From contig JAJRSO010000038.1 in the NCBI GenBank assembly GCA_024278755.1, forward strand, positions 1-64,000: a DNA stretch of 64,000 bases, read 5' to 3'. Shown here piece after piece: positions 1-14,007 of this stretch. The DNA is from Calditrichota bacterium (GTDB taxonomy: Bacteria > Calditrichota > Calditrichia > Calditrichales > Calditrichaceae). The stretch's first letter is position 1. Every line of letters starts with the position of its first letter. A program made the translations under genes and the position numbers. The notes beneath the pieces were generated by a model. The model was not told where the DNA came from, did no database searches, and worked only from the letters and a program-made list of their open reading frames with translations.

Positions 1-141
1 GGGATGCAATCAGCGTTCTAAATAATTAGAGCCCTAAGTTGGTTAGGAATCAAAAAAGGACTTTCAAAAGATAGAGTTAAAATTATGTAGAGCAGTCCCG
101 AAAGTCGGGATTGGTCCGGAGTTCGAATCTCCGCTGGCTCA
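1..141 (+). ncRNA. ssrA: tmRNA (ssrA), 3' portion; 5' end outside the window
   Basis: The 3' end folds as the tRNA-like part of a tmRNA. A perfect 5-bp T stem (117-121 with 129-133) encloses the loop TTCGAAT. It is followed directly by a 7-nt acceptor strand CTGGCTC (134-140) and a discriminator A (141). CCA is not encoded. Upstream, TAAATAATTAGAGCCCT (from 19) resembles the tag-stop and following helix of known tmRNAs, and TATGTAGA sits where tmRNAs carry a similar motif. Segment 59-65 can pair with 100-106 as a late pseudoknot stem. The 5' half and most of the peptide-tag frame lie before base 1. Read in the frame of the TAA at 19-21, the last tag residues would be GMQSAF, which is not the usual ALAA-like ending, so the exact frame is uncertain. 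A normal tRNA is excluded because no D or anticodon arm precedes the T arm. Confidence 0.6.
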
Positions 142-150
142 CGAGGGGAA

Positions 151-187
151 AAGCCTGTTTAACGTAAGTTGAACAGGCTTTTTTTTA
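151..187 (+). terminator. Intrinsic terminator of the tmRNA gene
   Basis: AAGCCTGTTT (151-160) and its near-perfect complement ending at 180 form a stable hairpin followed by a run of T (179-186). It lies 10 bases after the tmRNA 3' end and separates it from the following operon. Confidence 0.85.
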
Positions 188-358
188 TAAGATATACGCA
201 CAAGGGAGGATTCAAAATCATTGTTATTTTGTTTTTTTAGAGCCCCATCCGTAAATCTGTGAAAATTCGCGGCATTTTTTACCCTGTGTTATTTATACAA
301 AACGACTTTATACCCTTCTTGTGTATTTATTTATAATATACTTTTCAACTCGTTGTTC

Positions 359-379
359 GGCCGAATCTATAAATCGGCC
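359..379. promoter_or_regulatory. Inverted repeat, possible GntR operator
   Basis: GGCCGA (359-364) and TCGGCC (374-379) are exact inverted arms around a 9-base AT-rich spacer, about 65-80 bases before the GntR gene. A TATAAT hexamer lies at 332-337. FadR-type regulators usually bind short palindromes near their own promoters, so autoregulation of the hydroxyproline operon is a reasonable inference. No experimental or comparative support is available here. Confidence 0.35.
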
Positions 380-441
380 ATCATCCGACGAAGTTTTCCC
401 GTAAAAAATTTGAATTACCGTTTAAACTTTTCAAAATCGGG

Positions 442-1149
442 TTGCAATTTAAACATATCACTAATATATTACAGATATATTTAATAGGAGATCGTATTAT
501 CTTTACACCCAAACAAACAAAAAGCCTGGCGGAAACTGCCTACGAACGCATCGAAGAGATGATCGTTACCCTGCAATTGGAACCGGGGGCAGTGTTTTCC
601 GAAGCCGAATTGGCGGAAAGACTTCAGATTGGACGTACGCCGGTAAGGGAAGCATTGCAAAAACTTACCCAGTACAATTTAATAAAAACACTGCCGCGAC
701 GCGGTATGATGGTTATAGAAATCAATATCACCCAGCATTTGGCGCTGCTTGAAACGCGGCGAGTTTTAGAACGGCTGATTGTATCCCGGGCGGCGCGTAG
801 GGCCACCCCGCAACAGCGAAAAGCGTTACAAGCCTATGCGGAGATTATTCAGGAGGCTGCCAAGGAAAAGGATTTGGAAACCTTTATGCGCTATGATAAT
901 AAATTTGACCGTTTGGTGGAAAACGCTTCCGGCAATCCGTTTGCAGTCAAAGCCAATCAGCCCTTTCATGCCCATTGCCGTCGTTTTTGGTACTACTATC
1001 AGATAAACGGCGATTTGCAGCGTTCGGCCAATTTACACGCAGCCATTATGCGCGCCATCGCCGAAAGTGACGAAGAGAAAGCGGCAAACGCTTCGGACGC
1101 GTTTATGGATTATCTCGAAGAATTTACTAAAGCCGCTGTTCATATCTAA
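442..1149 (+). CDS. GntR-family (FadR/FCD type) transcriptional regulator
   Basis: Likely ligand-responsive regulator of the hydroxyproline operon that it heads. A winged-helix GntR domain spans about residues 27-95, with the typical segments AYERIEEMIV, SEAELAERLQIGRTPVREAL and LPRRGMMV. An all-helical FCD ligand-binding domain follows (about 102-228, beginning LETRRVLERLIVSRAA). The start is uncertain. The frame opens with TTG at 442 without a clear ribosome-binding site. TAGGAG at 485-490 would instead serve a non-standard ATT codon at 496, and either choice keeps the whole DNA-binding domain. The stop is 12 bases before the peptidase gene, so regulator and catabolic genes are probably co-transcribed. 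FCD members often bind small carboxylates, and proline or hydroxyproline derivatives would fit the context (inference). Confidence 0.85.
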   Translation: MQFKHITNILQIYLIGDRIIFTPKQTKSLAETAYERIEEMIVTLQLEPGAVFSEAELAERLQIGRTPVREALQKLTQYNLIKTLPRRGMMVIEINITQHLALLETRRVLERLIVSRAARRATPQQRKALQAYAEIIQEAAKEKDLETFMRYDNKFDRLVENASGNPFAVKANQPFHAHCRRFWYYYQINGDLQRSANLHAAIMRAIAESDEEKAANASDAFMDYLEEFTKAAVHI

Positions 1150-1161
1150 CCCGGAATATGT

Positions 1162-2451
1162 ATGTTGCAAAAATCTCTGTTTCTTCTTCTATTTGTAATG
1201 GGACTTGCTGTAGCCGGTTCTGCGGATTTACAGCGCTTATTAAATTCTGTTCATGGTCTTACTGTAAAAAAACTGCCTGCCGAAAAATCGTTTAGCGCTA
1301 GTTTTCAGATTTTCATTGAACAACCGTTGGACCATCAAGATCCGGAAGGAGCTCATTTTAAACAACAGATTATTTTATCTCACCGTTCATTCTCGGCGCC
1401 AACCGTTTTAGTCACCGAGGGCTACGGTATTTACGACAATCATACGCGTGAACTAAGCCAATTGTTACAGGCCAACGAAATCCGGGTGGAGCACCGCTTT
1501 TTCGGACGTTCCAAACCGGATTCCATGGATTGGGATAATCTGACCATTGCTCAGGAAGCGGCCGATTATCATCGGATTCAGCAAATTTTTAAAACGATTT
1601 ATAAAGGAAAATGGATCAGCACCGGTTGGAGCAAAGGGGGGCAGACCGCTGTTTTTTACCGCTTTTTTTACCCACAGGATGTGGATGCTACTTTAGCGTA
1701 TGATTCTCCATTTAACCTGCAACGCGAAGACACGCGCATCGACAGTTTCTTTAACCATGTGGGAACGGCGTTTTGCAGGCAAAAAATTAAAGCCTTTCAA
1801 AAAATGGCCTTACAACGCAAGGCGGATTTGTTACCTCTCTTTCAAAAATATGCCTTGCGGGAAAAATATCAGTTTTCCATTGGCTTGCAGGCCGCGCTGG
1901 AATATGCGATTCTGGAATATCCTTTTTCATTCTGGCAGTATCACAAATTAAACTGCGATTCCATTCCCACAAACAGCGCCTTTCCCCGGGCTATTTTTAA
2001 CCATTTGAAACTCGTAGTAGCGCTTTCGTCCTATTCAGATACAGCGCTGAATTCACCGGCCATGTACCAATTTTTCACGGAACTGGGCTACTACGGTTAT
2101 GTAACGGATGGGCTGGAACCGTGGTTGTCCGGCGCTTACGGTTATTCCAATGCGCTGTTTGCGCCACGAAACGCGGTTCTGAAATACCGTCCGCAGCGCA
2201 TGCAAAAAATTATACGTTGGCTAAAAGAAAACGCTTCGAAAATAGCCTTTATATACGGAAGCAACGATCCCTGGTCTGCTTCCGCGATTGATTTTCCAGG
2301 GCGGAAGGATCTACTTAAACAGACGCTTGGAGGGGGAAATCATTTTACGTTTATCCGCACGCTTCCCCAGATGGAGCAGAAAAGAATAATCGGAGCTCTT
2401 AAACAATGGCTTTATCTCGAGGAAAGGAGCAAAACCAATGACGGAGACTAA
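1162..2451 (+). CDS. Secreted S37-family prolyl tri/tetrapeptidyl aminopeptidase
   Basis: Alpha/beta-hydrolase serine peptidase with an N-terminal signal peptide (hydrophobic residues 5-18, cleavage near VAGSA). The nucleophile elbow is GWSKGG (Ser157). Asp369 in YGSNDPWS and His394 in GGGNHFTF complete a plausible triad, and HRFFGRSKP is typical of the S28/S37 group. Known S37 enzymes from Streptomyces release tri- or tetrapeptides ending in proline, which suits collagen-like substrates. At 429 aa it has near the usual family length. It sits between the GntR gene and the hydroxyproline dehydratase, whose start overlaps this gene by 14 bases. It is expected to act in the periplasm or outside the cell and to feed the POT transporter and prolidase encoded downstream. 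S28 rather than S37 membership is possible. Confidence 0.8.
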   Translation: MLQKSLFLLLFVMGLAVAGSADLQRLLNSVHGLTVKKLPAEKSFSASFQIFIEQPLDHQDPEGAHFKQQIILSHRSFSAPTVLVTEGYGIYDNHTRELSQLLQANEIRVEHRFFGRSKPDSMDWDNLTIAQEAADYHRIQQIFKTIYKGKWISTGWSKGGQTAVFYRFFYPQDVDATLAYDSPFNLQREDTRIDSFFNHVGTAFCRQKIKAFQKMALQRKADLLPLFQKYALREKYQFSIGLQAALEYAILEYPFSFWQYHKLNCDSIPTNSAFPRAIFNHLKLVVALSSYSDTALNSPAMYQFFTELGYYGYVTDGLEPWLSGAYGYSNALFAPRNAVLKYRPQRMQKIIRWLKENASKIAFIYGSNDPWSASAIDFPGRKDLLKQTLGGGNHFTFIRTLPQMEQKRIIGALKQWLYLEERSKTNDGD

Positions 2452-3496
2452 TTTTCAGAACCGCCTGGGATCCTTTCAGTGGCAGCCATCGTCAGACAGA
2501 GAACGGATTTGCACAATTGACGCCCACGCCGCCGGGGAACCGCTGCGAATTGTTTACAAAGGATTTCCGGAGTTGGAAGGGGAAACCATTTTAGAACGTC
2601 GCCGCTTTGCCAAAGAACAATTTGATGCGCTGCGTAAAACGGTAATGTGGGAGCCGCGCGGACATGCTGATATGTACGGCTGCATCCTTACGCCGCCGGT
2701 TACCGGGAATGCGGATTTTGGGGTTTTATTCACTCATAACGAAGGCTTTTCCACCATGTGCGGGCACGGCATTATTGCCGTAACCACCGTCATGTTGGAA
2801 GCCGGATTTCTGCAAAGTACCGAACCGCGCACCGTATTACGTATCGATACGCCGGCGGGTCTGGTAACGGCCACCGCGCACCTGCAGGGAAAACGGGTTC
2901 AGAAGGTCTCTTTTTTAAACGTACCCTCTTTTGTAGCTGCGCGGGAGTTGGAAGTGGATGTGCCGGGACTCGGCCGCGTGCGTTACGATATTGCTTTTGG
3001 AGGCGCTTTTTATGCCTTTGTGGACGCCGACGCCCTAAATATTGCCATGACAGCGGATAATTACCGCGGACTGATTGAAGCGGGCATGGCTATTAAACAA
3101 GCCGTGATGGCCTCACAAAAAATCAAGCATCCGTTTGAAACAGAGCTGAATTTCCTATACGGAACTATTTTTACAGGAGCGCCGCACGGCCCGCAGGCAG
3201 ACAGCCGTAACGTTTGTATATTTGCCGAAGGAGAGGTGGATCGCAGTCCCACGGGAACAGGCGTAAGCGCACGCATGGCTCTGCATTACGCCCGGGGGGA
3301 ATTAAAGGAGCGGGAAGAGATGATTATCGAAAGTATCATCGGCAGCCGGTTCAGCGGCCGGGTAGTGGAAGTAACTACATTTGGCCCGCACCGGGCGGTT
3401 ATTCCGGAAGTGAGCGGCAGCGCATATATTACCGGGCAGCATACGTTTTTAATTGATAAGCATGACCCGTTGAAAGACGGTTTTATTTTACGCTAA
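2438..3496 (+). CDS. trans-3-hydroxy-L-proline dehydratase (proline racemase superfamily)
   Basis: Predicted to dehydrate trans-3-hydroxy-L-proline to delta-1-pyrroline-2-carboxylate. The fold signatures of proline racemases are present: TIDAHAAGEP, FSTMCGHG and a glycine-rich DRSPxGTG loop. The first catalytic position is Cys108 (MCGHG). The second, normally Cys in racemases and epimerases, is Thr272 (DRSPTGTG). A Cys/Thr pair marks the dehydratase branch, including human L3HYPDH. At 352 aa the length is normal. The start ATG at 2438 is preceded by AAAGGAGC and overlaps the peptidase gene. The next gene encodes the reductase expected to use its product, which strengthens the call. Confidence 0.85.
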   Translation: MTETNFQNRLGSFQWQPSSDRERICTIDAHAAGEPLRIVYKGFPELEGETILERRRFAKEQFDALRKTVMWEPRGHADMYGCILTPPVTGNADFGVLFTHNEGFSTMCGHGIIAVTTVMLEAGFLQSTEPRTVLRIDTPAGLVTATAHLQGKRVQKVSFLNVPSFVAARELEVDVPGLGRVRYDIAFGGAFYAFVDADALNIAMTADNYRGLIEAGMAIKQAVMASQKIKHPFETELNFLYGTIFTGAPHGPQADSRNVCIFAEGEVDRSPTGTGVSARMALHYARGELKEREEMIIESIIGSRFSGRVVEVTTFGPHRAVIPEVSGSAYITGQHTFLIDKHDPLKDGFILR

Positions 3497-3509
3497 GCGG
3501 GATTTATCT

Positions 3510-4496
3510 ATGAACTCAACACTTAAATTCTTTTCCGCGCAGGACGTACATAAGGCGCTTTCTATGCAAGAAGCTATCCGGGCCATGGCCTCGGCTTTTA
3601 CTCAGTTGTCCGGTCAGAGGACTGTAACGCCATTGCGCAGTTCCATCGAGATTCCCGGAAGCGAGAACAGCGCGCTTTTTATGCCGGTTTATCTTCCGGG
3701 AAGCAGGAAGATAGCCGTCAAAACGGTTACCGTATTTCCGGGCAATACACAGCGGAAGCAGCCCGCTATTCAGGCTTTAATCACCCTGTTTGATGCACAA
3801 AACGGACAGCCCTTGGCCGTGGTGGACGGAACGGCCTTAACTGCCATACGCACGGGCGCAGCTTCCGGTTTGGCCACCGAACTGCTGGCGCGGACTGACG
3901 CGCAGGTATTAGCCTTATTTGGAGCCGGTGTACAGGGAGGTTGGCAAATAGAAGCAGTTTTGTCCGTTCGTTCCATACAAAAAGTGCTTATTTTTGATCC
4001 GGATAAACAGCGCGCCCAAACGCTGGCGGAGCATATCGTAGAACGGTATGATGTAAAAACAATCGTTTCAATTAATTCTGCCGAATTGCGGGAAGCGGAT
4101 ATTATTTGTACAGCTACCACTTCACAAGCGCCGGTTTTTAAGGATGCGGATTTGAAACCGGGTGTGCATATAAATGCCGTGGGCGCCTTTCGTCCGGACA
4201 TGCGGGAAATTCCGGCCCTAACCATGCAGCGCGCTTTGGTTGTTGTGGATGAACGCCGGGCCTGTTTAAAAGAAGCCGGCGAACTGATTATTCCCATTAA
4301 TCAGGGGGTGTTTGTTGCGCAACATATTTACGCCGAAATTGGCGATCTGACGGCCGGACGGGTAAAAGGACGTGAAAATAACGCGCAGATTACACTCTTT
4401 AAATCCGTTGGCAATGCGGTACAGGATTTAGCCGCCGCGGAAATCGTATTGCAGAACGGTTTAAAAATGAATTTGGGACAGACAGTTCAGATGTAA
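3510..4496 (+). CDS. Ornithine cyclodeaminase/mu-crystallin family; likely delta-1-pyrroline-2-carboxylate reductase
   Basis: NAD(P)-dependent enzyme of the OCD/mu-crystallin family, 328 aa. The N-terminal half carries substrate-binding signatures (AIRAMASAF, KTVTVFPGN). The nucleotide-binding fold starts at LALFGAGVQGGWQ with a GxGxxG pattern, followed by IICTATTS and the conserved HINAVGAFRPDMREI. Family members include true ornithine cyclodeaminase, alanine dehydrogenase and the reductases that turn pyrroline-2-carboxylate into L-proline. Its position directly behind a trans-3-hydroxyproline dehydratase (13-base gap) points to the reductase, completing conversion of trans-3-hydroxyproline to proline. 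The substrate assignment rests on context. Confidence 0.82.
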   Translation: MNSTLKFFSAQDVHKALSMQEAIRAMASAFTQLSGQRTVTPLRSSIEIPGSENSALFMPVYLPGSRKIAVKTVTVFPGNTQRKQPAIQALITLFDAQNGQPLAVVDGTALTAIRTGAASGLATELLARTDAQVLALFGAGVQGGWQIEAVLSVRSIQKVLIFDPDKQRAQTLAEHIVERYDVKTIVSINSAELREADIICTATTSQAPVFKDADLKPGVHINAVGAFRPDMREIPALTMQRALVVVDERRACLKEAGELIIPINQGVFVAQHIYAEIGDLTAGRVKGRENNAQITLFKSVGNAVQDLAAAEIVLQNGLKMNLGQTVQM

Positions 4497-4510
4497 AAAG
4501 GACATAAAAA

Positions 4511-5788
4511 ATGCTAAAGAAACATCCGGCAGGACTCTGGGTACTGTTTTCTGTGGAAATGTGGGAACGCTTCGGTTTTTACATCATGTCTGCCATTTAT
4601 GTTTTATATATGGACAAAGCGCTGCATTTTGACGATGCGCGCAAAGGATTGCTGTACGGCCTGTTTCTGGCAGCGGCCTATCTTTTTCCGTTGCTGGGCG
4701 GCTGGCTGGGCGATCGGGCGCTGGGACAATTGAATACGGTTCGAATCGGTCTGTGGTTGATGATTATGGGGTATGTGGGGCTGGCCCTGTCTTCTGCGGA
4801 GGCTTTAAACCCATTTTATACGGGACTGATGCTGGTGGCCAGTGGCACGGGAATCTTTAAGGTTAATATGTCGGTGTTTGTGGGTAATCTTTACCGCAAT
4901 AAAAGCGATCTGCGCGACGCCGGATTTAATATTTATTACATGGGCGTTAATGTGGGCGCCACTCTCGGCCCGCTGGCGGCAACGCTGATTGGCGCTTTTT
5001 TCAACCTGTATGTCCTCTCATTCTGGGCAGCGGCGGTTGGTTTGCTGATTGCCGTCCTCGCTCTGGAAATAGGCAAAAAACAGCTGACCGAAGCCGATTC
5101 CAACAGCACAACGGTTCAAAAACAAATTGCGCAAAATAAACAGGATATGAACAAAAAAGAATCTTTTCAGCGCATCGTGACCCTGTTGGTTCTGTTTCTT
5201 ATCGCCGGTTTATTCTGGATGCCGTTTTATCAGAACGGAATGGCCCTGACTCTGTTTGCCGACCGTTCTACGGTGACTTATACCTTTCTGCGTCCAGAAA
5301 CCTACGTTATGTTTAATGCTGTCTTTATCCTTTTACTAACGCCGCCCTTAGTGGCGTTTTATAGCTGGCTACGCAAACGCAACCGCGAACCCTCCACCCC
5401 TTATAAAATATTTTTTGGTCTGCTGCTAATGGCGCTGGCTATGGGAATTATGGTGATTGCTTCTCTAAGTGGCGGCAATGTCAATCAACCGGTCATGTCG
5501 CCGCTGTGGCTCATCATGACGTATCTGTTTATTACATTGGCCGAAATTCTAATTTCCCCCATGGGGCAATCCTATGTTTCGAAGGTGGCGCCTCAAAAAA
5601 TACAAGGGCTGATGATGGGCGGTTGGTTCGGTTCCACAGCCCTGGGAGCTTTAAGTTCCGGACTGTTTGGCCGTCTTTACAGTTCCATGCCCCATCATGC
5701 TTATTTTTTGGTATTAACAGGCATATCCCTGTTGGCGGCTGTGCTGGTTTTACTTTTTATGAAAAAATTGCAACGTTTCGCCCAATAA
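4511..5788 (+). CDS. POT/PTR-family proton-dependent oligopeptide transporter
   Basis: Inner-membrane major-facilitator protein with about 12 hydrophobic segments over 425 aa. The POT signature ExxER is present at residues 16-20 (VEMWERFGFY). GGWLGDRALG and GTGIFKVNMSVFVG match the other conserved POT blocks. The family imports di- and tripeptides with protons. Bacterial members are often 450-500 aa with 14 helices, so this is a compact version. It lies 14 bases after the reductase and before the prolidase. It is therefore the obvious importer for proline- and hydroxyproline-containing peptides made by the S37 peptidase. Confidence 0.9.
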   Translation: MLKKHPAGLWVLFSVEMWERFGFYIMSAIYVLYMDKALHFDDARKGLLYGLFLAAAYLFPLLGGWLGDRALGQLNTVRIGLWLMIMGYVGLALSSAEALNPFYTGLMLVASGTGIFKVNMSVFVGNLYRNKSDLRDAGFNIYYMGVNVGATLGPLAATLIGAFFNLYVLSFWAAAVGLLIAVLALEIGKKQLTEADSNSTTVQKQIAQNKQDMNKKESFQRIVTLLVLFLIAGLFWMPFYQNGMALTLFADRSTVTYTFLRPETYVMFNAVFILLLTPPLVAFYSWLRKRNREPSTPYKIFFGLLLMALAMGIMVIASLSGGNVNQPVMSPLWLIMTYLFITLAEILISPMGQSYVSKVAPQKIQGLMMGGWFGSTALGALSSGLFGRLYSSMPHHAYFLVLTGISLLAAVLVLLFMKKLQRFAQ

Positions 5789-5833
5789 ATACAGAGGGGA
5801 CGCCGACGATATATCACTAAAGCGGGAGAATAG

Positions 5834-7015
5834 ATGTTAATCAAAGAGAAATCAGCACAGGCAAAAGAAATTTTAAAAGAACTGCATATCGACACTTGGA
5901 TTACTTTTGTACGCGAAAGCCAGATAAACGGCGACCCGATTTTACCTTTTCTGGCCGAAGCGGATTTAACCTGGCATTCGGCGTTTATCATTAATCGGGA
6001 TGGCAGCAGTCAGGCGATTGTGGGTTTGTACGATCAAAAAACCGTGGAAGATACCGGCGTATGGGATAATGTTATCGGTTTTGTGGAAGGTATCGGTGAA
6101 CCGTTTAAAAACTATATAAAACAGTTAAATCCGGCTACTATCGCTCTAAACTATTCGGTGGGCAGTGAAATTTGCGACGGACTGACTCATGGCATGTACC
6201 TGACCATGATGGAACTATTGTCCGAAATCGGTCTGGCGGATCGGGTAGTCTCTGCCGAGAAAATTGTATCCGCTCTGCATGAACGAAAATCACCTTCCGA
6301 ACTGGCGAACCTACGCCTGGCCATCCGCCATACGGAAGAAATTTTTGATATGGTGGCCCGTTTCATAAAACCGGGGATGACGGAACGGGAAATTGCCGAT
6401 TTCATGAAGACCGAAACCAAACGCCGCGGACTGGATCTGGCCTGGGAACCGATGGTGTGTCCCGCGGTATTCAGCGGTCCGGAAACAGCGGGGGCGCATT
6501 ACAATCCTACCGGGAAAAAGGTGGAACGGGGCCACATCTTAAATATGGATTTTGGTGTGCGGGTGAACGGCTACTGTTCGGATATGCAGCGTACTTTTTA
6601 CATCTTAAAGGAAGATGAAACCAAAGCGCCGCCCGATGTTCAGAAGGGATTCGATACCATTGTTACGGCCATCGAAGAAGCGCGTCAGGCCATGTTCCCC
6701 GGCGGAGAAGGGATTGCTATCGACGCGGTGGCCAGGGAAGCGGTGCTTAAAAACGGCTACGAAGAATTTCCGCATGCTTTGGGACATCAGGTGGGGCGGT
6801 TTTCCCACGACGGGACCGCTATTCTTGGGCCGGCCTGGGAAAAATATGCCGAAAAACCGTTTCGCAAACTGGAGGAAAATATGGTTTTTACCCTGGAGCC
6901 CCGTTTAACTGTAAAAGGGCGCGGCACTGCCACCATCGAAGAGATGGTGCTGATCACCGATAAAGATGCGCAGTTTTTATCGCACCCGCAAACGGAGTTG
7001 ATTTACATTTTATGA
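5834..7015 (+). CDS. M24-family Xaa-Pro dipeptidase (prolidase)
   Basis: Cytoplasmic metallopeptidase expected to cleave X-Pro or X-Hyp dipeptides. The first 150 residues form the creatinase/prolidase N-terminal domain, and the rest is the pita-bread catalytic domain. All five dimetal ligands can be assigned: Asp239 (NMDFG), Asp250 (CSDMQR), His318 (HALGHQVG), Glu355 (TLEPRL) and Glu369 (ATIEEM). His222 in AHYNP is the usual substrate-side histidine. There is no signal peptide. An AGCGGGAGAA ribosome-binding region precedes the ATG. The stop overlaps the start of the activase gene by four bases (ATGA), which ties peptide hydrolysis to the radical enzyme system. Confidence 0.88.
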   Translation: MLIKEKSAQAKEILKELHIDTWITFVRESQINGDPILPFLAEADLTWHSAFIINRDGSSQAIVGLYDQKTVEDTGVWDNVIGFVEGIGEPFKNYIKQLNPATIALNYSVGSEICDGLTHGMYLTMMELLSEIGLADRVVSAEKIVSALHERKSPSELANLRLAIRHTEEIFDMVARFIKPGMTEREIADFMKTETKRRGLDLAWEPMVCPAVFSGPETAGAHYNPTGKKVERGHILNMDFGVRVNGYCSDMQRTFYILKEDETKAPPDVQKGFDTIVTAIEEARQAMFPGGEGIAIDAVAREAVLKNGYEEFPHALGHQVGRFSHDGTAILGPAWEKYAEKPFRKLEENMVFTLEPRLTVKGRGTATIEEMVLITDKDAQFLSHPQTELIYIL

Positions 7016-7830
7016 CGACGATACGCAAACAAACGCTTACGGGCGTAATTTATGATTTAAAAAAATATGCCATTCACGACGGCCCCGGCATTCGCACGAC
7101 CGTATTTTTAAAAGGCTGTCCGTTGAACTGCTGGTGGTGCCATAATCCCGAAAGCCGCAGTCCCAATCCGCAGCCCAGGGGTAATATGCGCCCCATTAAA
7201 AACTTGCCGCTTCTACAGAATAATCAAAACCTGATTGGCGTAGCAGTGACCGTGGATGCGCTGATACGGGAGGTACGTAAAGACATTTTGTTCTTCGATG
7301 AATCCGGCGGTGGGGTTACTTTTTCCGGCGGGGAGCCGCTGCTGCAACCCTGGTTTTTACAAGCCGCATTGCAGGCCTGCCATGCGGAAGGAATTCGTAC
7401 GGCTGTGGACACCACCGGGGTTGCTGCATTCGAAGCAATCGAATCCTTGGCTTCTTTTGTGGATTTATTTTTATATGATATAAAACTTTTGGATAATACA
7501 TTACACCGCAAATATACCGGTGTATCCAACCGGCTTATTTTGGAGAATCTGCTTAAAATGCACCGGGCCGGCTACCCGATTCGTATTCGGATTCCGCTCA
7601 TTCCTGACATCACGGATACGATGGAAAACTTACAGGCGATTTGCGATTTTCTGCTTAATAAAACCGGATTGCGGGAAGTGGAACTGTTGCCGTACAACAG
7701 CATGGGTAAAAGCAAATATGAGCGTCTGCAAATGGAATTTCGTCTGCAAAAACACACCATTCAAAGTGAAACTGAAATGGAAGCGAATCGGGAACGTTTC
7801 CGGCAAAAAGGTTTTCAGGTAGTGATATGA
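7012..7830 (+). CDS. Glycyl-radical enzyme activase (radical SAM), short form
   Basis: Activates the neighbouring glycyl-radical dehydratase by abstracting hydrogen from its glycine. The radical-SAM motif CxxxCxxC is C36-C40-C43 (GCPLNCWWCHNP). DGPGIRTTVFLKGC, SGGGVTFSGGEPLLQ, LYDIKLLD and LLPYNSMGKSKYERL are hallmark activase segments. Most activases of non-PFL glycyl-radical enzymes carry an inserted ferredoxin-like domain with two extra 4Fe-4S clusters just after the CxxxCxxC motif. Here residues 46-80 contain no cysteine at all, so that domain is absent and the protein (272 aa) resembles the pyruvate formate-lyase activase layout. Overlaps the prolidase stop by 4 bases. Confidence 0.9.
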   Translation: MTTIRKQTLTGVIYDLKKYAIHDGPGIRTTVFLKGCPLNCWWCHNPESRSPNPQPRGNMRPIKNLPLLQNNQNLIGVAVTVDALIREVRKDILFFDESGGGVTFSGGEPLLQPWFLQAALQACHAEGIRTAVDTTGVAAFEAIESLASFVDLFLYDIKLLDNTLHRKYTGVSNRLILENLLKMHRAGYPIRIRIPLIPDITDTMENLQAICDFLLNKTGLREVELLPYNSMGKSKYERLQMEFRLQKHTIQSETEMEANRERFRQKGFQVVI

Positions 7831-8041
7831 GGCGTTTTGGAAAGTGTTGCCGTCTCTGATTAAAAGGTAGCATTCGCTAAGCTTCGCCGAAAGAAAAAAG
7901 CTCTTCTGTTTTGGACGATTCTCATCAATTGTTTTTCTTTGCGCTCTCTGCGTATTGTTGCTCATCGGAAACAATTTGAGAACAGGAAAATCGAATTAAA
8001 ACGGAGGGCTTTAAACCCTTTACTAAAATCAGGAAAAAGTT
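7831..8041 (+). other. Spacer between activase and dehydratase genes
   Basis: No gene is supported in these 211 bases. The segment TTTGCGCTCTCTGCG (near 7938) is a low-complexity phrase like those in the dispersed repeat fragments elsewhere in the window. ATTGTT (7961-7966) and AACAAT (7971-7976) can pair. An AGGAAAAAG Shine-Dalgarno sequence precedes the next ATG. The gap could carry its own promoter or a processing site that lets the abundant radical enzyme be expressed above its activase. This is inference. Confidence 0.4.
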
Positions 8042-10402
8042 ATGAACGAACGTATTCGGAAATTACGCGCGCAATCCCTCGAAACCCAGGAGACGCTGGA
8101 TCAAGAGCGGGCGGTATTACTAACGGAGTTTTACCGTTCGCCCCAGGCGGCCCGCGTTTCTATTCCCGTAGCCCGGGCCATGGCCTTTAAATATATTCTG
8201 GAGCATAAAACCGTGTATATCGGCGACGGAGAGCTTATCGTTGGCGAGCGGGGTCCGTCGCCCAAAGCCGTACCCACTTATCCGGAACTCTGCGTCCATA
8301 CAAAGCAGGATTTGGACATTCTGCACCACCGCGAAAAGGTTACCTACACGTCCACGGAAAAAACGAAACAGGTTTTAACGGAAGCTATTTTACCCTTCTG
8401 GCAGGGGCGTTCCGTTCGCGACCGGATTTTTAAAGAAGTGGATGAAGACTGGAAGAACGCCTATGCGGCCGGCGTGTTTACGGAATTTATGGAGCAGCGT
8501 GCCCCGGGGCATACGGTTTTGGATGATAAAATTTACCGGAAAGGTATGCTGGATTTTAAGGCGGATATGGCGGCCGCAGTGCAGAAGTTGGATTTTTTCA
8601 ATGATGCCAATGCATTAGAAAAACGGGAAGAATTAAAAGCCATGATGGTTGCCGCAGACGCGATTATTTTATTCGCGCAACGTCATGCAAAAAAGCTAAC
8701 CGAACGGGCCGCAGAAGAAGGCGATTTACGCCGCAAAAATGAACTGGAAAAAATGGCGGAAATTTGTTCCCGCGTTCCGGCCCATGCGCCAACAACCTTT
8801 TGGGAAGCGCTTCAATATTACTGGTTTGTGCATTTGGGCGTTGTAACGGAATTGAACACCTGGGATTCCTTTAATCCGGGACGGTTGGATCAGCATTTAC
8901 TGCCGTTTTACGAACAGGGTTTGGCCGATGGCAGCCTGACCAGAGAGCGGGCCAAGGAATTACTGATGGCGTTTTGGATTAAATTCAATAATCAGCCGGC
9001 GCCGCCCAAGGTGGGCGTAACCGCACAGGAAAGCAACACGTACACCGATTTCTGCTTGATAAATGTAGGCGGCGTTACGGCAGAGGGACTGGACGCAGCT
9101 AATGAAATGAGTTATCTGATTCTGGATGTTATCGAAGAAATGCGTTTGCTCCAGCCCAGTTCCATGGTACAGATAAGTAAAAAAAATCCCGACCGTCTGC
9201 TAAAACGGGCCATGAAAATCATTAAAACCGGTTACGGCCAGCCATCGCTTTTTAATACGGACGCCATCGTGCAGGAGATGGTTCGCCAGGGAAAGGACAT
9301 CATCGACGCCCGCCTCGGAGGCGCCAGCGGCTGCGTGGAAGCAGGCGTCTTCGGAAAAGAAAGCTATATTTTAACCGGTTATTTTAATCTGGTAAAAATA
9401 CTGGAAATTACGCTGCACAATGGAACCGATCCCCGCAGCGGCAAACAGATCGGTCTAAAAACAGGCACGGCAGAATCCTTTTCTTCTTTCAATGCATTTT
9501 TTGAAGCCTTTCAAACGCAACTACGCGCATTTATTGACATCAAAATAAAAGGCAACCGCATTATTGAACAAATTTATGCGGCCTACATGCCCGCGCCCTT
9601 TCTGTCCATTTTAGTGGATGACTGCATTGCCGCGGGCACTGATTACAATGCAGGTGGCGCGCGCTACAATAATTCCTATATCCAGGGTGTGGGCATCGGA
9701 ACTATTACCGACGCTCTGTCCGCCATAAAAACCCTGGTGTATGAACAGCAGGCTTTTTCTATGGAAACACTAAAACAGGCGCTGGCAGCGAATTTTGAAG
9801 GCTACGAGAAACTACGGCGGCAACTGCTGGACGAAGCGCCCAAGTACGGCAATGACGATGACCGGGCAGACGCCCTTACTCAAAGGGTGTTTGAAACCTA
9901 TTTTAAAGAAATTGACGGTCGGCCCAACACAAAAGGCGGACACTATCGGGTGAATTTGTTACCCACAACCGTGCATGTCTATTTTGGACAGGTGGTTGGG
10001 GCTACACCGGATGGGCGTTTATCCGGTGTTCCGCTTTCCGAAGGTATTTCGCCGGTGCAGGGCGCGGATACGAACGGCCTGACGGCAGTCATCAAGTCCG
10101 CTGCGAAAATCGACCATTTGCGTACAGGCGGTACATTGCTCAATCAGAAATTTACTCCCCAGGTGCTTGCCAGCGAAGCGGGTTTGACCAAAGCCGTGCA
10201 ACTTGTACGCAGCTACTTCCGTATGGACGGGCATCATATTCAGTTTAACGTGGTGACGGCCGACACTTTACGCAAGGCACAGCAATCTCCGGATCAATAT
10301 AAAGATTTGATTGTTCGGGTGGCCGGCTACAGCGACTATTTTGTGGATTTAACCGAAGAATTACAGGACGAAATTATCCGCCGTACAGAGCAGGAAATTT
10401 AA
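8042..10402 (+). CDS. hypD: trans-4-hydroxy-L-proline dehydratase (glycyl-radical enzyme HypD)
   Basis: Predicted to dehydrate trans-4-hydroxy-L-proline to delta-1-pyrroline-5-carboxylate. The thiyl-radical Cys431 and base Glu433 lie in GGASGCVEAG. The glycyl-radical loop near the C terminus is VRVAGYSDYF (Gly762). Residues recalled as forming the Clostridioides difficile HypD active site (His160, Asp278, Ser334, Asp339, Phe340, Cys434, Glu436, Tyr450, Gly765) all have identical counterparts here three positions earlier: His157, Asp275, Ser331, Asp336, Phe337, Cys431, Glu433, Tyr447, Gly762. At 786 aa the length is typical. The name hypD collides with the unrelated hydrogenase maturation gene. 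No proC-type pyrroline-5-carboxylate reductase is in the window, so that step must be encoded elsewhere. Confidence 0.93.
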   Translation: MNERIRKLRAQSLETQETLDQERAVLLTEFYRSPQAARVSIPVARAMAFKYILEHKTVYIGDGELIVGERGPSPKAVPTYPELCVHTKQDLDILHHREKVTYTSTEKTKQVLTEAILPFWQGRSVRDRIFKEVDEDWKNAYAAGVFTEFMEQRAPGHTVLDDKIYRKGMLDFKADMAAAVQKLDFFNDANALEKREELKAMMVAADAIILFAQRHAKKLTERAAEEGDLRRKNELEKMAEICSRVPAHAPTTFWEALQYYWFVHLGVVTELNTWDSFNPGRLDQHLLPFYEQGLADGSLTRERAKELLMAFWIKFNNQPAPPKVGVTAQESNTYTDFCLINVGGVTAEGLDAANEMSYLILDVIEEMRLLQPSSMVQISKKNPDRLLKRAMKIIKTGYGQPSLFNTDAIVQEMVRQGKDIIDARLGGASGCVEAGVFGKESYILTGYFNLVKILEITLHNGTDPRSGKQIGLKTGTAESFSSFNAFFEAFQTQLRAFIDIKIKGNRIIEQIYAAYMPAPFLSILVDDCIAAGTDYNAGGARYNNSYIQGVGIGTITDALSAIKTLVYEQQAFSMETLKQALAANFEGYEKLRRQLLDEAPKYGNDDDRADALTQRVFETYFKEIDGRPNTKGGHYRVNLLPTTVHVYFGQVVGATPDGRLSGVPLSEGISPVQGADTNGLTAVIKSAAKIDHLRTGGTLLNQKFTPQVLASEAGLTKAVQLVRSYFRMDGHHIQFNVVTADTLRKAQQSPDQYKDLIVRVAGYSDYFVDLTEELQDEIIRRTEQEI

Positions 10403-10711
10403 CGCCGGAAGTAGCGATTAGAGAAAGCATTTTTAGAAATAAAGTGAGGAAATGAAGAATAATAATCTTGTATTCACGCTATTGTTTCTTTATCGAATCA
10501 TTTGGGATGAAAACGATAAACCCTTGGCACATATAAGAGTAGACTCTGATTAAAACAACAAAGGGCCTAACGCCTTATAAATAAAAGGCAAAGTATTCAG
10601 AAACAGAACCATGTTGTTTTTTCTTAGGAAAAACCATATCTTAAAATAATCCCTCTGGTAAAATCCGTTTTTTATTGGCAGTAATTTGTCTGTTAAAATA
10701 GAGGTAATAAA
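10403..10711 (+). other. Intergenic region with one possible micro-ORF
   Basis: Mostly AT-rich non-coding DNA. One 33-codon frame at 10452-10553 starts MKNNNLVFTL behind GTGAGGAA. It has no recognisable domain and could be chance. No clear rho-independent terminator follows the dehydratase gene. A TTGGCA-AATTTG pair near 10675-10690 looks like a sigma54 site but has the wrong spacing. Confidence 0.4.
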
Positions 10712-12139
10712 ATGAAATGGTTTCTATTTTCGATTATACTTTTATTTATTTCAAAAGTATCTGCCGATAGTGGCTGGAGTACGCCTGTACCGGTGACGGA
10801 TTCAAATAGCGATAATATAAATTGTACAACGGACTTTTTTGATTTTGACGGAGATTATCAACCGGACTCCCTTTTTATGTTCTGGGAAAAGTCCTCCGAC
10901 GGAAACACCACTTCAATTTATTATCGGGATCTGTATTCGATGTCTGAACCGAAAGTAGTTTTATCTCAGGAGAATGTGCATTTTACGAATCCTCAAATAA
11001 TGAAAAGCGCCAAAAATGATACCTTGTTTTATCTGTTTTATGAAACCGACCAGAACGGAACTAAAGATATTTACTTTTTAAAATATCTAAAGAACGGTAT
11101 GTTTTCAGAGCCGGCGCCTTTCAGAGCGACCGCTTACGAGGATAAAAATATTTTTACAACCAGCTTTGCCATTGTTTGGATAGAAGAAGATGATGTGTAT
11201 TATTCCGAATACGATTATACCGATTATTTTTCAGCGCCGCTTTTAATTGATGAGAACAATTGCGCAAACCCGGTGCTGCATGAACGCGGCTATATCGCCT
11301 GGGAAAAGATTATCGGAGAAAAAGCAGATATTTATTATTCGAATTATGCAGAAGGTGAATGGCAAAGTCCCGCCTTGCTGTATGGAATTGGGGATAACCG
11401 CCATTTGGTTTTTGATCAGCCGGATGGTATGGCCTACCTTGTATGGCAAAACAAAACCGCTTCGAAATGGAATATATTTTTTAAAGGAATGGAAGAAAAT
11501 CTACCGGTAGACAGTCTGGATTTCGCTCCTGCTTCCAATAAAACGGAACCCTCAATATTATTCATTAATTATGTTACCAAGGCGGGAGTGATAAATAATG
11601 CGCCGCCAAGCAGCGTATTGACGTTTGTGCTTGATTCCACCTATGCGCAGGACGAGATATTTGCCGGGGAATTCGATTTTGAGAATATCTCCAATAATGA
11701 GCAGAAAGATCGTCATCCGCAACTTTTCGAAAAAAGAGGATTGGGGCAGCCGTATAAAGTACTTAATATTTGGGAATCTCATGTAAACGATCGCTGGCAA
11801 CTATTTATAGCGGAAAAAGAGTATGATATCAATACGGTTGTTTCAAAAAAAATTATTCCCCATACCATTCAATTATATCAAAATTATCCAAACCCGTTTA
11901 ATCCCGAGACACGTATTCAGTATGCGTTAAACAGCAGGATTTACGTTACACTGATGATTTACAATGCGTTAGGGCAGAAAGTACGGACACTGGTAAAAGG
12001 TGAGAAGTCTCCAGGAAAATATGAGATTAATTGGAATGGTTTTGATGATAAGGGGCAGCGGCTTGCCAGCGGAACGTATTTTTATCAATTGGTTTCGGAT
12101 GGAATCGTGCAAACAAAACGAATGATTTATCTAAAATAG
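10712..12139 (+). CDS. Secreted protein with C-terminal T9SS/FlgD-type sorting domain
   Basis: Signal peptide at residues 1-18 (hydrophobic, ending KVSAD). The body contains repeated short beta-strand units with aspartate- and tryptophan-rich turns (for example IYYRDLYS, IFFKGMEEN), suggesting a beta-propeller. The last 80 residues hold YQNYPNPFNPETRIQYAL, a strand-rich segment with YNALGQKVRTL, then GTYFYQLVSDG. This is the standard C-terminal sorting domain of the FCB group. Exported proteins with this tail cross the outer membrane by type IX secretion. No enzymatic motif was seen and the function is unknown. It is followed after 14 bases by the KamA-family gene, which may be coincidence rather than pathway. 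Confidence 0.8.
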   Translation: MKWFLFSIILLFISKVSADSGWSTPVPVTDSNSDNINCTTDFFDFDGDYQPDSLFMFWEKSSDGNTTSIYYRDLYSMSEPKVVLSQENVHFTNPQIMKSAKNDTLFYLFYETDQNGTKDIYFLKYLKNGMFSEPAPFRATAYEDKNIFTTSFAIVWIEEDDVYYSEYDYTDYFSAPLLIDENNCANPVLHERGYIAWEKIIGEKADIYYSNYAEGEWQSPALLYGIGDNRHLVFDQPDGMAYLVWQNKTASKWNIFFKGMEENLPVDSLDFAPASNKTEPSILFINYVTKAGVINNAPPSSVLTFVLDSTYAQDEIFAGEFDFENISNNEQKDRHPQLFEKRGLGQPYKVLNIWESHVNDRWQLFIAEKEYDINTVVSKKIIPHTIQLYQNYPNPFNPETRIQYALNSRIYVTLMIYNALGQKVRTLVKGEKSPGKYEINWNGFDDKGQRLASGTYFYQLVSDGIVQTKRMIYLK

Positions 12140-12153
12140 GAACAGGTGTAAAG

Positions 12154-13233
12154 ATGCGCAAGAACGGGATACGGACATTAGAACAATTGGAAACATATGC
12201 GACTATTACAAAAGATGAAAAGCGCAAGCTTAAAAAAATTATCAGTGCGCATCCCATGCTGATTAGCCCCTATTATATGGGTTTAATTGACTGGAAGGAT
12301 CCCGATGATCCTATCCGCAAAATCGTAGTTCCATCCGCTCAGGAAAACCTGCCGCAGGGTAGTTACGATACCAGCGGCGAACGGGTGAATACAAAACTCC
12401 GCGGCTTACAGCATAAATATGCACAAACGGCGCTGATTCTAACGACCAATCAATGTGCTGCCTACTGCCGCCACTGTTTTCGCAAAAGGCTGGCCGGCGT
12501 GGTGACCGACGAAATTGTAACCGACTGGGATCTGATCGTCTCCTATTTAAAAGAGCATACCGAAATTACCAATGTTTTGTTAAGCGGCGGCGACCCCTTT
12601 ACGCTGCCGACGCAAAAAATAGCCGAGATTTTACATCGCTTATCCGAAATTGATCATCTTCGCTTTATTCGAATCGGTACGCGGATTCCGGTGGTTGACC
12701 CGGACAGGATTAGTAATGATACGGCATTGTTGGAACTGTTCGAAACGTATTCCCGCATCAATAAACAATTATTTATTATAACCCAGTTTAACCATCCCCG
12801 GGAACTTACGCCGCAAAGTATTACATCCATTAATAAAATGCACAAGGCCAATTTGGTAATTCGCAATCAAACCGTATTGCTAAATGGCGTAAATGATATA
12901 CCTGAAGTGCTGGCGGACTTGCAAACATCATTAAATAGCCATGGCGTCATTCCCTATTATGTTTTGCAGTGCCGTCCGGTGAAAAAGGTAAAGCATATAT
13001 TCCAGGTGCCTTTGATGACAGCGTCTAAAATCGTAGAGGACGCCCGGAAGCGGCTGGATGGACCGGCCAAGAGTTTCCGCTTTATCATGTCCCACCGAAC
13101 CGGGAAAATAGAAATTCTCGGGCAAATGGACGGGCGAATGTATTTTCGCTATCATCAGGCAAAAGACCAACGCTATGCGGGAAAATTGTTTTCTAAAAAA
13201 CTGGATGAAACAGACTCCTGGCTGACTCTATAG
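12154..13233 (+). CDS. KamA-family radical SAM enzyme (lysine 2,3-aminomutase-like, substrate unclear)
   Basis: Radical SAM, PLP-dependent aminomutase family protein of 359 aa. The cluster motif CxxxCxxC is C101-C105-C108 (CAAYCRHCF). LSGGDPF (about 143-149) and IRIGTR are typical of KamA proteins. The PLP-binding lysine probably corresponds to Lys318 (RTGK). In lysine 2,3-aminomutase two aspartates bind the substrate side-chain amine. The first, which follows the QC/VC pair, is Arg274 here (QCRPVKK). The second, seven residues before the PLP lysine, is Ile311. The enzyme therefore probably does not use free lysine. An acidic or other amino acid is possible, as is EpmB-like modification of translation factor P. 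Neighbours give no clear pathway. Confidence 0.78.
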   Translation: MRKNGIRTLEQLETYATITKDEKRKLKKIISAHPMLISPYYMGLIDWKDPDDPIRKIVVPSAQENLPQGSYDTSGERVNTKLRGLQHKYAQTALILTTNQCAAYCRHCFRKRLAGVVTDEIVTDWDLIVSYLKEHTEITNVLLSGGDPFTLPTQKIAEILHRLSEIDHLRFIRIGTRIPVVDPDRISNDTALLELFETYSRINKQLFIITQFNHPRELTPQSITSINKMHKANLVIRNQTVLLNGVNDIPEVLADLQTSLNSHGVIPYYVLQCRPVKKVKHIFQVPLMTASKIVEDARKRLDGPAKSFRFIMSHRTGKIEILGQMDGRMYFRYHQAKDQRYAGKLFSKKLDETDSWLTL

Positions 13234-13346
13234 CCTTACCATAGTTTTATTATCTAATAAACCAATATCCAATCGTTATCTTATAATTTGAAATACAATT
13301 TTAAAATTTTACCTTTTAAGTTCTTGACGATTAAACCTGAGTTTAA

Positions 13347-13922
13347 ATGAAGACTAAAAAAATAGCATTGCTCGATAATAACGACTCTTTTACCTATAAT
13401 ATCGTAGACTATTTACGGCGCCTTGAAACGATTGATCTGAGGGTCTTTAAAACCAATAAACTCTCCATTGCAGACCTGAAAAGATTTGATTCGATTATTA
13501 TCTCTCCTGGGCCGGGGCTTCCCAAAGATTTCCCCGTTCTTTTTAGTGTCCTTGAAAAATACCACGATTCAAAACCTGTTTTGGGGATTTGTTTGGGGCA
13601 TCAGGCAATCGGCGCATTTTACGGGGCTAAATGTCGTCCGGTTTTTCCTGTGATCCATGGGCAGGCTCATGCGGTAAAAATTACAAAATCATCCAGATTG
13701 TTTGATTCGGTTCCTAAAACGTTTAAGGCTGGATTGTACCATTCCTGGGCGATTGACAGGGATACGGTTTCTGAAGAATTAGAAATTACGGCGGTTTCGG
13801 AAAGTAAGGTAATAATGGCGGTCGCCTCCAAAAAATATGCCGTTTTTGGAATTCAGTTTCATCCGGAGTCGTATCTAACGGAAAATGGATTTACTATTTT
13901 AAAGAATTTTGCGGAAATGTAG
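13347..13922 (+). CDS. pabA: Aminodeoxychorismate/anthranilate synthase glutamine amidotransferase subunit
   Basis: Class I glutamine amidotransferase of 191 aa that supplies ammonia to the chorismate-binding partner encoded next. The N terminus LLDNNDSFTYN and the oxyanion region SPGPGLP are characteristic. The catalytic Cys82 is in GICLGHQ, and the His-Glu pair is in GIQFHPESY near residue 170. PabA and TrpG cannot be separated from sequence alone. The following pabB and pabC-like genes favour the folate (p-aminobenzoate) role. Eighty-five bases separate it from pabB. Confidence 0.87.
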   Translation: MKTKKIALLDNNDSFTYNIVDYLRRLETIDLRVFKTNKLSIADLKRFDSIIISPGPGLPKDFPVLFSVLEKYHDSKPVLGICLGHQAIGAFYGAKCRPVFPVIHGQAHAVKITKSSRLFDSVPKTFKAGLYHSWAIDRDTVSEELEITAVSESKVIMAVASKKYAVFGIQFHPESYLTENGFTILKNFAEM

Positions 13923-14007
13923 TGAAACAGATAACAATGAACAATTAATCATAGATAGCTATAAGTTGTAATTCTTTAATGAAATTTAAAATTTTTGGAT
14001 CGATGTA

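Follow-up and report, generated by a model that had tools for sequence, protein, structure and literature searches.

Gene Organization at the Locus

We analyzed a window of 64,000 nucleotides from a Calditrichota bacterium (contig JAJRSO010000038.1), which harbors a run of eight genes ending in HypD, a predicted glycyl radical trans-4-hydroxyproline dehydratase. The locus is the 5' end of a 322-kb contig in a 3.94-Mb draft genome (G000; 96% complete, 79 contigs), and since the window begins at the contig end, the sequence before base 1 is out of view. Eight open reading frames, all on the + strand, occupy positions 442 to 10402 in the order GntR/FCD regulator, S37 peptidase, racemase-family dehydratase, OCD-family reductase, POT transporter, M24 peptidase, radical-SAM activase and HypD. 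An earlier note, made from the sequence alone, had described this single-direction run at these positions, and the reading frames, families and catalytic residues confirmed it. All eight proteins exceeded the Pfam cut-offs of their families (GntR and FCD, S37, Pro_racemase, OCD_Mu_crystall, PTR2/POT, M24, Radical_SAM, and PFL-like with Gly_radical). The genes are spaced by -14 to +46 bases, except for 212 bases upstream of HypD and about 310 bases downstream of it. The features are as follows.

452–484, +: three tandem 11-base-pair repeats, AACATATCACT AATATATTACA GATATATTTAA, candidate GntR operator; arrangement common to G008, G005 and G004
496–1149, +: GntR/FCD-family transcriptional regulator; PF00392 and PF07729 above cut-off; probable start ATT 496
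1162–2451, +: S37 serine peptidase, predicted to be secreted and to cut after proline; PF05576, 229.5 bits; GWSKGG, NDPW and GGNH motifs
2438–3496, +: Cys/Thr racemase-family enzyme, predicted trans-3-hydroxyproline dehydratase; PF05544, 392 bits; MCGH and SPTGTG motifs
3510–4496, +: OCD-family reductase, predicted delta1-pyrroline-2-carboxylate reductase; PF02423, 232.7 bits
4511–5788, +: POT/PTR2 proton-coupled importer of di- and tripeptides; TIGR00924, 243.6 bits (cut-off 130.2); PF00854
5834–7015, +: M24 metallopeptidase, predicted Xaa-Pro dipeptidase or aminopeptidase; PF00557, 157.9 bits
7012–7830, +: radical-SAM HypD activase, short type without ferredoxin-like domain; TIGR02494 above cut-off; CPLNCWWC motif
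8042–10402, +: HypD, predicted glycyl radical trans-4-hydroxyproline dehydratase; NF043068, 1275.6 bits (cut-off 1100)

HypD and Its Short Activase

All ten residues that were mutated in HypD of Clostridioides difficile are kept in the predicted HypD (H157, D275, S331, D336, F337, C431, E433, Y447, T642 and G762), with the numbering offset by three positions from the C. difficile protein at each site. In the adjacent activase the stretch between the CxxxCxxC motif and SGGE spans 59 residues, none of them cysteine, so that the protein lacks the eight-cysteine ferredoxin-like domain that most such activases carry; in long HypD activases this stretch spans 85–122 residues with 7–10 cysteines. The T4HPD_activ_SAM model (NF043069) gave 296 bits, below its cut-off of 425, and was still the best specific model by sequence. 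This cut-off was missed because the domain insert is missing. The predicted role as a HypD activase is unaffected, as HypD is adjacent and TIGR02494 was passed. An AlphaFold model of the short activase had a predicted local distance difference test score of 93.6, and its top match in the PDB was pyruvate formate-lyase activase (3c8f/3cb8; template modeling score 0.82–0.84 by query length). Like that enzyme, the short activase has this fold and no auxiliary clusters, but its partner is HypD and its best specific sequence model is that of a HypD activase.

We classified 82 activases into 40 short and 42 long ones; the two types were seen among the protein at 7012–7830 and loci L044–L061 and L078–L157. 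In the HypD tree a single branch parted the two activase types (support 98), and addition of a distant outgroup placed all short types in one clade (support 99). The activase tree, calculated with the insert removed, concurred with a weaker support of 76. The difference is likely a loss of the domain rather than a gain, although this direction is not secure because the outgroup branches are very long. We consider it rather probable that, in one large subfamily of HypD (Calditrichota, Ignavibacteriota, Bacteroidota, Zixibacteria, Asgard archaea and others), the activase shed its auxiliary ferredoxin domain in a single event and activates HypD with the single radical-SAM cluster. No description of a short HypD activase was found in the literature searched, which was covered in part.

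Two further glycyl radical loci were observed. A second enzyme of this type, which stays under all NCBIfam cut-offs, is encoded with a long eight-cysteine activase on contig C29 of the same genome (L069, 4095–6407 and 6328–7332). Genome G019 has a divergent HypD (54% identity; L056, 9957–12419) with a long activase, apart from that genome's cluster of dehydratase, reductase and aminopeptidase P (L063).

The Predicted trans-3-Hydroxyproline Branch

The racemase-family protein has its cysteine in MCGH and a threonine in SPTGTG. This Cys/Thr pair is the mark of trans-3-hydroxyproline dehydratases (PMC4364671), and an identity as proline racemase was rejected. The top-scoring NCBIfam model was NF045511, with 414 bits against a cut-off of 540, and the best solved structure was 6r76 (447.5 bits), the enzyme of Thermococcus litoralis (PMC9309405). 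The reductase encoded downstream is the only member of the ornithine cyclodeaminase family in the genome. Its best solved structure was 6t3e, by name a delta1-pyrroline-2-carboxylate reductase (257 bits), and it missed the curated NCBIfam scores (137 of 400 for NF045512, the LhpI type; 295 of 322 for PRK06141).

Predicted Peptide Capture

The S37 protein shows both the family score and the Ser-Asp-His motifs, together with a single N-terminal hydrophobic segment at residues 5–23. The sole S37 enzyme listed in MEROPS cuts after proline (PMC9147577). The transporter has the family score and the ExxERFxxY motif of POT symporters (here EMWERFGFY). In the M24 protein the metal-ligand motifs are kept, and the closest solved structures were the proline dipeptidase 5cdl and the aminopeptidase P 2zsg. 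It stayed under all NCBIfam cut-offs for prolidases and aminopeptidases (top score 105.5 of 393). The earlier note had named it a prolidase; the M24 family stands, while the narrower label is not a confident one because every specific cut-off was missed.

Conservation of the Cluster

We compared 40 Calditrichota genomes. HypD was matched in 19 of them, and the racemase family also in 19. All eight genes are present in identical order in G008. In G004 they are spread over two contigs, with the break within the reductase gene, and G005 has the cluster without S37 and POT. A short contig of G002 carries HypD, dehydratase, reductase, M24 and S37 in a different order. The cluster is also reordered in G037 and G039 (activase, HypD, aminopeptidase P, EamA transporter, dehydratase, reductase, POT and M24), with a PutP-like symporter 3' of it in G039. 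The gene content is thus kept in six relatives. HypD and dehydratase were linked in 7 of the 13 genomes that have both, G004 being taken as linked. By random placement this has a probability of about 6e-13, a value that ignores shared ancestry, as the genomes are not independent. We concluded that the eight-gene run is real and conserved and looks like an operon in which known enzymes are newly combined.

Two insertions or neighbors were seen in single genomes: a gene for a 23S rRNA-intervening-sequence protein lies between activase and HypD in G005 (L045, 7387–7758), and an M64 (IgA-peptidase family) metallopeptidase gene adjoins the reductase and trans-3 dehydratase genes in G030 (L065, 7337–8812).

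A scan of 84,980 species confirmed at least 567 HypD relatives, of which the best 80 were examined for their neighborhood. These 80 come from Calditrichota, Ignavibacteriota, Bacteroidota, Chloroflexota, Planctomycetota, Aminicenantes, Asgard archaea and others, and proC was detected in the fetched flanks of none of them, many flanks being short. The view that most known HypD clusters belong to gut Clostridia and include proC was therefore not supported, while the placement of the organism in an environmental FCB lineage was (Calditrichota). HypD and the Cys/Thr dehydratase also occur together outside the phylum, in Melioribacteraceae, Desulfobacteraceae, Desulfosporosinus and another member of the Bacillota. 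The joining of the trans-3 and trans-4 branches with peptide uptake, as claimed earlier, is supported at this locus, but the pairing of HypD with a trans-3 dehydratase is not unique to it. The literature searched, with partial coverage, yielded no combined trans-3/trans-4 cluster.

Probable Fate of Pyrroline-5-Carboxylate

As the earlier note had stated, proC is missing from the cluster. It had suggested looking for the gene elsewhere in the genome, where two models detected none. Likewise, proA and proB were not detected in G000, each of the models being positive in 12 of 14 control genomes, and proC was also undetected in a congener (72% complete draft). Among the 40 Calditrichota genomes proA was undetected in 39 and proB in 38. 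In Caldithrix abyssi, of the same phylum, the route from glutamate to proline is reported to be incomplete (PMC5317091). G000 encodes a delta1-pyrroline-5-carboxylate (P5C) dehydrogenase, which scored 778 bits with TIGR01236 (cut-off 613.6; TIGR01237 is not the right model), and a proline dehydrogenase above the Pfam cut-off. Both genes lie away from the cluster, and the run has no collagenase, so that calling it complete was an overstatement.

Because proA, proB and proC were undetected and both dehydrogenases are encoded, the two branches most likely converge on P5C, which would be oxidized to glutamate rather than undergo the reduction seen in clostridial Stickland metabolism. Three loci of Ignavibacteriota/Bacteroidota (Melioribacter roseus and relatives) have HypD close to proline dehydrogenase, one of them also with P5C dehydrogenase, which supports an oxidative fate elsewhere too. 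Some other Calditrichota members carry proC, and the oxidative fate is therefore limited to the genus and some relatives.

The GntR Regulator and a Candidate Operator

An AT-rich triple repeat of 11 base pairs lies directly 5' of the GntR start in all four genomes that have this GntR gene in the HypD cluster. By eye, the remaining upstream region of G008, G005 and G004 appears unrelated. The scoring matrix for the repeat was derived from the same four sites and its score is circular, which is why we count the shared arrangement, and not the score, as evidence. The triple repeat is a candidate operator of the regulator. It overlaps positions 442–495, so that the TTG start at 442 given earlier is probably wrong; ATT 496 is likelier, as the related proteins begin about 18 codons later and AGGAG precedes 496.

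In G024 and G031, both without HypD, GntR proteins with 55–57% identity are encoded next to Cys/Cys HypE-like genes. This suggests that the regulator is tied to hydroxyproline, whichever enzyme serves.

Neighboring Sequences

Promoter and terminator scans came out at about the shuffled expectation, and an Rfam search of positions 1–14000 gave no match above threshold. Within positions 1–140, upstream of the operon at the contig edge, bases 1–134 weakly resemble the 3' end of a transfer-messenger RNA, under the gathering score. HypD is followed on its 3' side by a gene with a signal-like start and a sorting-domain-like C-terminal end, and then by a gene for a KamA-family radical SAM protein (12154–13233), with no apparent link to the operon. 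The latter scored similarly against models for lysine, glutamate and arginine 2,3-aminomutase, under every cut-off.

Discussion

Gene content, its conservation, the catalytic residues, the two dehydrogenase genes and the lack of detectable proA, proB and proC are consistent with an operon that is controlled by GntR and lets the cell use hydroxyproline-containing peptides without oxygen, with a pathway to glutamate. We give this a probability of roughly 0.8. Substrate specificities, export, regulation and flux would then be as follows. The exported S37 peptidase would trim peptides after proline or hydroxyproline, the POT transporter would bring in di- and tripeptides, and the M24 peptidase would release the imino acids. 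The short activase would install the glycyl radical of HypD, which would dehydrate trans-4-hydroxyproline to P5C. The Cys/Thr enzyme would convert trans-3-hydroxyproline to pyrroline-2-carboxylate, the OCD-family enzyme would turn this into proline, and proline dehydrogenase would yield P5C from it. P5C dehydrogenase would finally convert the P5C of both branches to glutamate. Use of peptides would not be foreign to the phylum, as C. abyssi ferments them (PMC5317091).

The locus shares with the HypD cluster of gut Clostridiales (C. difficile; PMC7077986) an adjacent radical-SAM activase and the ten conserved residues. It differs in the activase without ferredoxin-like domain, in the trans-3 branch and peptide uptake that are joined to it, and in the predicted oxidative fate; the P5C reductase gene that lies near HypD in the clostridial Stickland type was found neither in the cluster nor in the genome. 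The trans-3 pathway of T. litoralis, bacteria and mammals likewise consists of a Cys/Thr dehydratase and then an OCD-family reductase, the proteins encoded here being closest to 6r76 and 6t3e, but in our case it stands in the same operon as a glycyl radical trans-4 branch. With the oxidative HypE pathway the locus shares the related regulator found beside HypE-like genes in G024 and G031, and in G028 the same dehydratase-reductase pair lies beside a Cys/Cys HypE-like gene; here HypD stands in the place of HypE. A clear Cys/Cys enzyme is encoded in four Calditrichota genomes (G024, G028, G031 and G033), all of which lack HypD, and HypD and HypE seem to replace each other. The regions where HypE-like genes lie beside the pair or beside a related GntR gene are 84–3179 of L041 (G028), 326–2067 of L166 (G024) and 7731–9391 of L165 (G031).

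Several points weigh against the proposed pathway. Dehydratase, reductase and activase are all under the NCBIfam equivalog cut-offs and are therefore assigned by their residues, their nearest structures and their context. The substrates of the M24 and S37 peptidases are predictions. The 212-base gap between activase and HypD means that HypD may be driven by a separate promoter. At least seven genomes (G007, G009, G010, G014, G029, G030 and G036) have HypD and activase without the remaining genes, and to them the scattering in close relatives that the earlier note had considered does apply, while it does not apply to the gene set kept in six relatives. The undetected pro genes are not proven absent because the genome is a draft, and the proline dehydrogenase step needs an electron acceptor.

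Collagen is a plausible natural source of the peptides. It is possible, though the less likely case, that the same pathway serves a different source, namely hydroxyproline-rich proteins of plants or algae, or free hydroxyproline used as a solute by other microbes. Hydroxyproline occurs in plant cell-wall components (PMC9309405), its trans-4 form is accumulated as a solute by Halobacillus halophilus (PMC5655121), and a collagenase is not among the eight genes. However, a trans-3 branch would be of greatest use with collagen, the named source of both isomers (PMC9309405), and the presence of genes for peptide uptake speaks against free hydroxyproline as the only source.

We regard it as unlikely that the operon mainly supplies proline for protein synthesis, with energy gain being secondary, although such salvage could coexist with the degradative pathway. 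The undetected proA, proB and proC would fit it, as would the reductase being the only gene of its family in the genome. On the other hand, HypD cannot feed proline synthesis without a P5C reductase, trans-3-hydroxyproline makes up only a small share of collagen, and the genes for the two dehydrogenases, of proline and of P5C, show a degradative route.

A reductive Stickland-type use, in which P5C is reduced to proline, racemized and cleaved by D-proline reductase, with hydroxyproline as electron acceptor, is very improbable for G000. HypD of gut Clostridiales does act reductively and is encoded near a P5C reductase (PMC7077986), but proC was not detected here, and the sole racemase-family gene of the genome encodes the Cys/Thr enzyme, leaving no proline racemase of that family. 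The Stickland fate was rejected; a search for PrdB (D-proline reductase) also gave no match, a weak point as its controls matched nowhere. That the genes are chance neighbors grouped in this assembly alone was dismissed as next to impossible: several relatives do have HypD and activase alone, but six keep the gene set in at least three arrangements, and the linkage is far above random.

The degradation pathway thus proposed assigns a testable route for hydroxyproline peptides to a little-cultured phylum, and genes for both branches, trans-3 and trans-4, recur together. Here a glycyl radical enzyme may supply an oxidative route to glutamate in place of Stickland reduction. Two papers state that little is known of what the auxiliary clusters of glycyl radical activases do (PMC10239695, PMC11528403). 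If a HypD clade does manage without them, it would be a natural experiment on the purpose of that domain, and the question is directly testable.

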